This document shows positions 3,838 to 10,045 of a stretch of DNA of 64,000 bases, in pieces. The stretch's first letter is position 1. The number at the start of each line of letters is the position of its first letter. A program made the translations under genes and the position numbers. Location of the stretch: positions 124,001-188,000 of the IMG/VR virus record IMGVR_UViG_3300031997_000001; one strand, 5' to 3'. This stretch comes from a virus. The notes under the pieces are model-generated. The model ran no database searches, had not been told where the DNA came from, and worked only from the letters and a program-made list of their open reading frames with translations.

Positions 3838-3866
3838 TTGACAAACCGGATACCCTGTGGTATAAT
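3838..3866 (+). promoter_or_regulatory. Consensus sigma70 promoter
   Basis: TTGACA at 3838-3843 and TATAAT at 3861-3866 with a 17-bp spacer: perfect hexamers and ideal spacing. The start of transcription should be near 3873, directly ahead of a hairpin-rich stretch and the peptidyl-tRNA-hydrolase-like gene. It is the best promoter match in the window. Confidence 0.85.
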
Positions 3867-3872
3867 TGCGTG

Positions 3873-4140
3873 TGAAAGGAGGGAAAGAGGGAGTAGGGAA
3901 ATGCCGGTCCTGACGATTCCTCACAGACGTGTCCCGTATGTGAGGGGAGAAAAGCGAAGATTAAGTATCTGCACGTTCAGTGCAGTAGTTCCGGCGGGTG
4001 TCCGGCAAGTAGCCCGTGCAAGCGGGAACTCTCAGCGTGAGAGAACACCACTCCGTCGTCGTCTGTCATCGTCAGGATCGACATCTCCCTACACGCCGTC
4101 CAAAGCAGGCAAGCGTTCAACCACCAGAAGGGAGGGGCGT
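3873..4140 (+). ncRNA. Candidate structured leader or small RNA
   Basis: About 270 bases between the promoter at 3838 and the ATG at 4141, with no convincing protein. Perfect stems are visible: 3919-3925 with 3939-3945 (CCTCACA/TGTGAGG), 3969-3974 with 3980-3985 (CTGCAC/GTGCAG), 3987-3992 with 4025-4030 (AGTTCC/GGAACT), and 4029-4033 with 4039-4043 (CTCTC/GAGAG). The last two share bases and cannot form together, as in switching leaders. The frame starting at 3901 is open but would give an Arg/Ser-rich, unlikely protein. It could be a riboregulated leader or an independent RNA. Confidence 0.4.
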
Positions 4141-4539
4141 ATGACCTAGGTTGCCACCCATTTCTACGTCATCGTCCGGACCGACATCTCACTCCCTCAG
4201 CAGATCGTCCAGGCTGTCCACGCCGCCCATGACGCAGGCCGTGTAGTATCCTCTGATGGACGCTTTTCCACCGTCGTCTGCCAGGTCCCTTCCGAACAAC
4301 ACCTGCTCCACGAGTACGATCGTATCACCTCCAGGGGTATTCGGTGCTTCCTGTTCAGGGAGCCAGACATGGGCGGTCAGGCAACGGCCCTGGCTACCGA
4401 ACCCACCGCCAATAGGAAGTTCTTTTCCCGGTTTCACCTTTGGAAAGGAGACAACCATGTTGTAGGCAAGAGGACCGCCGTTGCTTGTCCCGACAACTTG
4501 TCCGTTTCCACGTCCTCAGTTATTGGAGACAAGCAATGA
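4141..4539 (+). CDS. Peptidyl-tRNA hydrolase 2-like protein with amber codon 3
   Basis: ATG at 4141 follows a strong GGGAGGGG site, then ACC, then TAG (4147-4149), then an uninterrupted frame to TGA at 4537-4539 (132 codons). The downstream protein matches the PTH2 family by eye: HFYVIVRTDIS (strand 1), QQIVQAVHAAHDAG (the helix with the conserved Q..QA.HA pattern), STVVCQVPSE, then FREPDMGGQATALATEP, the usual D.G.T motif. PTH2 releases peptides from peptidyl-tRNA. No ATG, GTG or TTG start lies between the TAG and strand 1. It therefore needs amber read-through, or it is a recent null allele. The stop overlaps the next start. A CUA tRNA lies 330 bases downstream. Confidence 0.7.
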
Positions 4540-4817
4540 TTCTCACCACCGAGCAGTGGGATGCCGTCCAGGCGATGAAGGCGGAGATCAAGGGCCTGGC
4601 CGAGACCCAGAAGAAGGAGAAGGCCATCCTGCGGACCCCGCATTTGAACATCCGCGTGCCTGATGGAAAGGGTGGCTTTTACGGTCCCTGGCACTTCCAG
4701 TGGGAGACCCACAAGAGGGCCAGGCTGATCACGGAGCACCTGATTGAGTACAATAAGGCACGCGGGAAGGACTTCTCCATGTACCTGGGGAAGCAGAAGG
4801 CGGAGGCAAATGGTTGA
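4536..4817 (+). CDS. Hypothetical protein
   Basis: 93 residues; the ATG overlaps the TGA of the PTH2-like gene, so the two are probably translationally coupled. Residues 1-32 are helical and Lys/Glu-rich. The middle has a GKGGFYGPWHFQWE segment rich in aromatics. No family recognised. Confidence 0.7.
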   Translation: MILTTEQWDAVQAMKAEIKGLAETQKKEKAILRTPHLNIRVPDGKGGFYGPWHFQWETHKRARLITEHLIEYNKARGKDFSMYLGKQKAEANG

Positions 4818-4843
4818 CCCCGATAGTACCTCCGTAGTATAAT
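4814..4843 (+). promoter_or_regulatory. Sigma70-like promoter ahead of the tRNA
   Basis: TTGACC at 4814-4819 and TATAAT at 4838-4843, with an 18-bp spacer. It overlaps the last codons of the preceding gene. The predicted start lies about 20 bases before the tRNA, so the tRNA and the operon behind it have their own promoter. Confidence 0.75.
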
Positions 4844-4870
4844 GTGGTTGCGGGACCGGCGTCCCGCTTT

Positions 4871-4944
4871 GCACCCATAGCACAATGGTAGTGCTGCGAA
4901 CTCTAAATTCGCGAATGAGGGTTCAATTCCCTCTGGGTGCACCA
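4871..4944 (+). tRNA. Amber-suppressor tRNA, anticodon CUA
   Basis: Complete cloverleaf with encoded CCA. The acceptor is GCACCCA (4871-4877) with TGGGTGC (4934-4940). The D stem is GCAC/GTGC around AATGGTA. The anticodon stem is GCGAA/TTCGC around the 7-base loop CTCTAAA (4901-4907), which places C4903-T4904-A4905 at positions 34-36. The T arm is GAGGG/CCCTC around TTCAATT. A CUA anticodon reads UAG. The discriminator is A73 and the first pair is G1-C72; the amino acid it carries cannot be told from this alone. A short variable arm excludes Ser, Leu and bacterial Tyr types. Confidence 0.9.
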
Positions 4945-9601: not shown

Positions 9602-10045
9602 CTATTCCATACTCTGGTCGACGAGCTTCTTCCACACGTTGCGGGCGATGTTCGGATCCATCAGGAAGTCCAGGATGTGCTTCTCATCCCTGTTGTCTAT
9701 GTCCTGGACCCTGAATGCCTTCTTGATGGCGAGCATGTCGAAGCGGTCTATCATCTCCTGCGTCTTTATCTTGCCGTTCGGGAGGACGATCTGGACGAAC
9801 TTCTTGATGCCGATCTTTCCTTCCTGCTCGTCCACTTTCATGCCGATCTTGAGCGTGCGCCTGCTTCCATCCAGACCCTGAAAGGCCAGCGTCGCGAACG
9901 GACTCCCGTCCTCGTCCTTCGAGTACTGCCAGTCAGGCCCGCGCCAGTCACCCTGTCCCTGGGTTTCTGGCTCAGTCTCTATCTGAGCTGCGATCTCTTC
10001 CGGGGTGGGCATTTTTTCTGCCATGGGTCCCTCGTGTTCTGTCAT
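9602..10045 (-). CDS. Hypothetical acidic-N-terminus protein
   Basis: 147 residues (a second ATG at 10024 is also possible). The N-terminal 35 residues are Glu/Pro/Gln-rich and probably disordered; the rest is a compact alpha/beta region rich in Lys. It ends with TAG just before the glycosyltransferase start. Divergent from the micro-gene at 10074. No family recognised. Confidence 0.7.
   Translation of the reverse strand: MTEHEGPMAEKMPTPEEIAAQIETEPETQGQGDWRGPDWQYSKDEDGSPFATLAFQGLDGSRRTLKIGMKVDEQEGKIGIKKFVQIVLPNGKIKTQEMIDRFDMLAIKKAFRVQDIDNRDEKHILDFLMDPNIARNVWKKLVDQSME

Follow-up and report, generated by a model that had tools for sequence, protein, structure and literature searches.

Early in-frame stop codons and cognate suppressor tRNAs accompany PTH2-like genes of many giant phages

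Results

A PTH2-like gene with an early stop codon and a suppressor tRNA

We analysed a 64,000-nucleotide stretch of phage DNA, here called the window, which spans bases 124001-188000 in a virus record of 235,458 bases from a jumbo phage. The window contains a gene for a PTH2-like protein that opens with ATG ACC TAG, and a suppressor tRNA with the anticodon CUA lies downstream of it. Sequence comparison indicates that this arrangement of an early in-frame stop and a suppressor tRNA occurs in many giant phages. It suggests that the dedicated suppressor tRNA very probably gates translation of a module composed of the PTH2-like gene and an HD-like partner gene. The comparison supports this through conservation of the stop, cognacy of stop and anticodon, linkage of gene and tRNA, the context of the stop and selection on the coding sequence. 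It goes beyond the initial annotation of this DNA in how general the arrangement is, in the likely gating of the HD-like partner as well, and in the finding that stop and anticodon change together. The central features are as follows.

4130..4135, plus strand: Shine-Dalgarno-like GGGAGG, 5 nt before the ATG (read from the sequence)
4141..4539, plus strand: PTH2-like gene, ATG ACC TAG followed by 129 codons and TGA (open reading frame; Pfam PF01981 match with E=4e-4, under the curated cut-off; predicted fold)
4147..4149, plus strand: UAG at codon 3, in frame, with G as the +4 base (sequence; kept across the PTH2-like family)
4871..4944, plus strand: suppressor tRNA, anticodon CUA, CCA encoded, discriminator A (ARAGORN, Rfam, fold)

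Positions 4141-4152 read ATG ACC TAG GTT, and the frame is open from 4150 to the TGA at 4537-4539. No in-frame ATG, GTG or TTG is found after the UAG before codon 74 past the stop. ARAGORN and Rfam both call the CUA tRNA (4871-4944/4941), and it folds into a full cloverleaf with z = -4.5. These agree with the initial annotation, which had described a complete tRNA. Rfam found nothing else, save one antisense match below threshold.

The early stop is conserved among relatives

Relatives were gathered by protein similarity only, a procedure blind to stops and tRNAs. After dropping members more than 90% alike, the family comprised 76 non-redundant PTH2-like phage genes, and profile searches were run with its subgroups. 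A search of genome contigs with the profile of subgroup A5 gave no relative. In 63 of the 76 genes, an in-frame stop immediately precedes the open frame and a start codon lies ahead of that stop. This semi-automatic classing is least certain for the late stops (L227, L240, L269) and for genes in which another start codon immediately follows the stop (L196 and the mycobacteriophages). The stop is located at codon 3 in 30 genes, codon 4 in 22, codon 2 in five, codon 5 in three and later in three. It is UAG in 61 and UGA in two.

Two relatives illustrate the conservation. In contig L002, the start of the PTH2-like gene and the 730 nt from there to the tRNA are identical to those in the window. 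In the tRNA, 7 of 74 positions differ; they lie in the variable loop and T arm, and the T stem stays paired. L003 encodes a protein 83% identical and has unrelated upstream DNA; ATG ACC TAG is found there again, together with a diverged CUA tRNA. Elsewhere the codons before the stop vary. The start is ATG ACT TAG in Acinetobacter phage ME3, ATG ACG CAC TAG in Serratia BF and Erwinia SNUABM_19, ATG GCA CAA TAG in Pectobacterium CBB and Cronobacter GAP32, and ATG GCT CAC TAG in Xanthomonas XbC2 and Erwinia Kaldavass. It is ATG AAG TAG in Xanthomonas XacN1, where it lies upstream of the annotated ORF364, and in Stenotrophomonas CM1; RAS14 has the same start by translation. Salmonella Arash has ATG CTG TAG and Tenacibaculum pT24 has ATG AAA TAG. 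The metagenomic phages LR756511 and LR756501, in the 595-735 kb range, contain an early TAG as well. The PTH2-like genes of cultured phages are mostly unannotated or annotated from a downstream start. The initial annotation had allowed for a misread base at 4147. Since independent phages, cultured isolates included, share the stop, a sequencing error at this position is excluded and the TAG is genuine.

Similar starts were seen in other genes. Upstream genes in L174 (9237), L262 (1930) and L263 (1709) start with ATG TAG or ATG ACT TAG, continue with KLIIITRRDL..GYQAV and pass into a domain that is unrelated and contains SENRIK; it may be an HNH endonuclease. In these three, a different gene may have acquired a copy of the gated start. 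In L194, an upstream ATG...CAG TAG at 9960-10000 is offset by one base from the PTH2-like frame, and no suppressor tRNA is found in 20 kb. This offset is possibly a frameshift variant or an assembly error.

The stop codon matches the anticodon of a nearby suppressor tRNA

We searched for suppressor tRNAs up to 10 kb on either side of the PTH2-like gene. Every UAG gene with a suppressor tRNA nearby has one with the anticodon CUA (48/48), and one of these also has a UUA tRNA. Both UGA genes have a UCA tRNA and no CUA tRNA (2/2). The matching of stop and anticodon is significant (Fisher p = 8e-4). Gene and tRNA are separated by 40-4820 nt, and 35 of 50 pairs are within 1.2 kb. The UGA genes, L181 and L227, neighbour different UAG genes in the tree, so that two separate changes are needed. 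ARAGORN identified two UCA tRNAs in L181. We regard this joint change of stop and anticodon as the strongest sequence evidence that the phage tRNA decodes the stop.

Complete genomes show the same association. Those with an early stop carry a CUA tRNA (the window's phage, ME3, BF, CM1 and LR756511). The PTH2-like genes of RaK2 and Hallingskeid have no early stop, and no suppressor tRNA is found in either whole genome.

The discriminator base of the suppressor tRNAs is A in 37, G in 10 and T in six, and the 1-72 pair is G-C in 39 of 54 and C-G in seven of 54. An attempt to assign an amino acid from these two elements failed. Because the discriminator bases and first acceptor pair vary widely, the inserted amino acid is probably of little importance. 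Two CUA tRNAs are labelled in public records as tRNA-Ser in Myrna (L203, 3463-3534) and as tRNA-Phe in Arash (L205, 7310-7384).

The frame appears to be read from before the stop

Most early-stop genes have no conventional start codon soon after the stop. Within 20 codons past it, 53 of the 63 early-stop genes contain no ATG and 39 contain no ATG, GTG or TTG. In BF, the PTH2-like frame after the stop has none of these codons at all. A Shine-Dalgarno sequence (SD) is recognisable in 40 members, and 36 of these have it 5-9 nt upstream of the start codon ahead of the stop.

Selection on the frame was estimated from the ratio of nonsynonymous to synonymous substitution rates (dN/dS) over the first 60 codons. 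Among the 11 pairs tested, the ratio is 0.04-0.24 where dS is finite; ratios with saturated dS are uninformative. These low values indicate that the frame downstream of the stop is translated. The context of the stop is also biased. The +4 base is a purine in 61 of 63 genes, compared with a background of 61% at comparable codons (p = 3e-11), and the excess also holds when terminal TAGs in the tested phages are the reference (p = 2e-11). A purine 3' of the stop favours amber suppression.

An HD-like partner gene carries an early stop in many relatives

In many of these phages an HD-like gene adjoins the PTH2-like gene or is fused to it. Its Pfam HD match is weak (E = 0.016), and an HDxGKP motif was recognised by eye. 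At 17 UAG loci the HD-like gene has an early stop of its own, and in L181, where it starts with ATG ACA TGG TCG TGA, the early stop is UGA. In the group of BF, CBB and GAP32, a conserved TAG is located at codon 47, and the annotated piece is a 46-residue 'hypothetical protein'. Readthrough of this TAG would give a 188-codon HD-like protein in all 10 records examined. The interrupted gene of BF surfaced in a TAG-spanning homology test of long genes, which was otherwise swamped by antisense and shadow frames.

The fused genes have a single TAG at the start. The order is HD-PTH2 in XacN1, CM1, L161 and L162, and PTH2-HD in pT24. A structure model of the HD-PTH2 fusion was too poor to be used, with a predicted local distance difference test score (pLDDT) of 46. 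In L233, the PTH2-like gene has no stop and the HD-like gene has one. No stop was found in the HD-like genes of ME3, Arash, L198, L208 and L194.

The protein has a predicted PTH2 fold in which the Gly-Lys lysine is not conserved

The protein in the window scores 21 bits against Pfam PTH2 (PF01981; E=4e-4), below the gathering cut-off of 23. Its relatives in L164, L175, L235 and XacN1 pass the cut-off. An AlphaFold (AF2) model of the window protein has a pLDDT of 83. In a Foldseek search of the PDB with this model, the top 15 matches are all PTH2-type structures, with E values from 8e-6 to 4e-3. The fold thus appears to be that of PTH2.

The lysine of the Gly-Lys motif in PTH2 is catalytic. For this motif, which lies before Q..HA, profile alignment to 2zv3, 24bt and 1rzw indicated that two residues are missing and that the lysine is replaced by glutamine in the consensus. 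The initial annotation had taken the protein as an active peptidyl-tRNA hydrolase. Because the lysine is not conserved, this activity is not to be assumed and is only putative. A canonical PTH2 is encoded separately in several of these phages, and the PTH2-like proteins form a divergent second family alongside it.

Proposed mechanism

In the mechanism we propose, the ribosome would initiate at the ATG at 4141 and meet the UAG at codon 3. Release factor 1 (RF1) would usually terminate there and release a dipeptide. Full-length protein would be made only once the CUA tRNA has been transcribed from its own gene, processed and charged, and beats RF1. The HD-like gene would be gated likewise in many relatives. 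Because the early stop is accompanied by a cognate tRNA, usually adjoining, the protein probably requires this functional phage tRNA for its synthesis. We infer the readthrough itself, the competition with RF1 that would set its level, and its timing. The initial annotation had proposed that production of the PTH2-like protein depends on the tRNA. The stop in 63/76 genes, the cognate tRNAs in 48/48 and 2/2, and a dN/dS of 0.04-0.24 strongly support it. The pair of tRNA and gene may act as a switch, the word used at that time.

As to purpose, we favour the idea that the gate would tie a tRNA-acting module to the functional tRNA supply of the phage and serve as a sensor. A closed loop is a possible though doubtful extension. 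The suppressor tRNA would switch on the PTH2-like/HD-like module, which would act on peptidyl-tRNA or aminoacyl-tRNA and might have the suppressor tRNA among its substrates. The phage would then sense and tune the status of charged tRNA or release factor during infection. If true, a loop of this kind would represent its own class of translational regulation, with a wide distribution among jumbo phages.

Several observations weigh against gating by the suppressor tRNA. Three lineages, L167, L236 and L243/L244, combine a nearby CUA tRNA with a PTH2-like gene that has no early stop, and no gated partner was found in them. Thirteen UAG genes have no suppressor tRNA in the stretch searched, although CM1, LR756511, L161 and, from its paper, XacN1 have since been accounted for. 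L219, L231, LR745206 and LR756504 have the UAG, and a strict pattern gave no ordinary CUA tRNA for them. No SD could be recognised in about 23 AT-rich members. The genome G002 has a CUA tRNA and a five-codon open reading frame (ORF) ending in ACC TAG, and no PTH2-like gene was found in it. For the mycobacteriophages LinStu and Myrna, a GTG just past the UAG fits the position of the SD better, and the sequence makes initiation after the UAG plausible in these two.

Two further observations concern tRNA genes. ARAGORN called a tRNA-like gene with the four-base anticodon TCTA in LR756504 (L275, 1489-1564). In the Prevotella Lak phages L295 and L299, which use code 15, the PTH2-like gene shows no early TAG, and an ochre (UUA) tRNA that could not be interpreted is located 0.6-0.8 kb upstream of it.

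Alternative explanations

The starts of LinStu and Myrna suggest another explanation for the family as a whole, in which the short ORF is a leader or start-stop element, the protein starts past the UAG at a conventional or unusual codon, and the tRNA is unrelated. These two phages have ATG/GTG TAG GTG with an SD placed about 7 nt upstream of the second GTG, L196 has an ATG directly after the stop, and ATT follows the stop in 17 of 63 genes. However, a conventional start is missing from the first 20 codons in 39/63 and from BF altogether, and the SD spacing suits the codon before the stop in 36/40. A leader would also leave unexplained why UAG is matched by CUA and UGA by UCA, and why the tRNA is absent where the stop is absent. 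We consider it improbable. A bar-like minigene is somewhat less so, although we still think it unlikely. Here the two-codon ORF would promote drop-off of peptidyl-tRNA, the gene would sense its own hydrolase activity, and the suppressor tRNA would provide the escape. It is an appealing variant that would refine the gate and does not exclude it. Drop-off and recycling by Pth belong to early elongation (PMC8012679; PMC10192219), and the gated gene has a PTH2 fold. The HD-like partner is, however, gated at codon 47 in BF-like phages, far from the drop-off zone, and the codon before the stop is not conserved.

If UAG were reassigned throughout the genome in the style of code 15, the PTH2-like gene would be one of many users. 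The CUA tRNA is consistent with this, and recoded phages with suppressor tRNAs are well known. In the window's phage, however, 41 of 125 long ORFs (33%) end in TAG, and the extension past the stop is 25 codons, compared with 24 for TGA. Genome-wide recoding is rejected because TAG is an ordinary terminal stop there. A blind scan of nine phage records, some of them fragments, for an SD, a start, TAG and a long frame gave 136 candidates. Homology between genomes linked the PTH2-like locus only, as the main gene and a frame nested inside it. The swaps to UGA make no sense under code 15 either, and the chance that recoding accounts for the gene is very slight. A sequencing error or a decayed gene is the least probable explanation, to the point of being negligible. 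Nothing except a lone TAG in one genome would speak for it, and the same stop in cultured and uncultured phages, together with low dN/dS, refutes it.

Relation to known systems

Readthrough by a phage suppressor tRNA is a known class of mechanism. In phages using code 15 and similar codes, a suppressor tRNA of the phage, in most cases CUA, enables a host with the standard code to read the stop (PMC10879173, PMC13037316). Those phages likewise encode the cognate suppressor tRNA. Here, in contrast, UAG is still a normal stop, and a conserved early stop is located near the start codon of the PTH2-like and HD-like genes. The gene for release factor 2, prfB, throttles its own expression by an in-frame stop near the gene start (PMC12421855). 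It resembles the present case in its early in-frame stop and is itself a translation-factor gene. Unlike in prfB, a suppressor tRNA rather than a frameshift would pass the stop, and the product is not a release factor. In a test for frameshifting of the prfB type, the stop shared the frame of the downstream domain in 63 members, and L194 alone showed an offset.

The bar minigenes of lambda consist of a two-codon ORF followed by a stop, and are toxic when Pth is deficient (PMC8012679; PMC10192219). The two-codon ORF, the stop and the tie to peptidyl-tRNA and Pth are shared, whereas here the frame runs on into a conserved protein. PTH2 has been described as a ribosome-rescue enzyme that occurs throughout jumbo phages (PMC7824862). 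The paper is silent on suppressors and on stop codons, and the family described here is a divergent second one. CUA tRNAs of jumbo phages have also been noted before. The authors of the XacN1 study looked for a target and found none (PMC5852040), and those of the RsoM2USA study assumed several potential genes and named none (PMC8504454). Here a target is proposed, including the ATG AAG TAG of XacN1 itself. In open-access full texts, a scope outside which bioRxiv and most subscription journals lie, we found no report of a gene-specific gate with its own dedicated tRNA.

Many unexplained suppressor tRNAs of standard-code phages thereby gain a likely target. A widespread pair of genes is cut short or overlooked by gene callers. 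The arrangement would offer an example from nature of a single gene, or a module, under the control of a suppressor tRNA of its own, and phage tRNAs become candidate regulators, beyond codon supply.

Other features of the locus

The remaining features in this part of the window are a small gene and two predicted promoters.

3838..3866, plus strand: putative sigma-70-like promoter of the PTH2-like gene, TTGACA-17-TATAAT, 12/12 (consensus scan)
4536..4817, plus strand: small gene of 93 codons, overlapping the PTH2-like stop as ATGA (ORF; kept with its neighbours in L003)
4814..4843, plus strand: putative sigma-70-like promoter of the tRNA, TTGACC-18-TATAAT, 11/12 (consensus scan)

The CUA tRNA is the sole tRNA of the window. 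The phage has 41 tRNAs in total, and the remaining 40 form a minus-strand array at 8-29 kb, about 100 kb away. A promoter for the tRNA alone had been claimed in the initial annotation, and the predicted match at 4814-4843 agrees with it. The perfect sigma-70-type match sits 275 nt 5' of the PTH2-like ATG. In the leader (3901-4140), a part near 4065-4095 resembles the 5' part of the PTH2-like gene itself (GTCATCGTC.GGA.CGACATCTC). This repeat looks like a partial duplication and is not present in L003.

The end of the PTH2-like gene and the start of the tRNA are about 331 bases apart. The initial annotation had placed a gene starting with ATG ACC TAG about 330 bases upstream of the tRNA and beside it. 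The start and the distance hold, but the two are not directly adjacent, because the small gene at 4536-4817 intervenes. This gene has no Pfam match and no PHROG match. By eye, it is similar to L006 207-614, which is located downstream of a five-codon ORF, and to the region fused to the PTH2-like protein of L243 as its N-terminal part. It is possibly a third member of the module.
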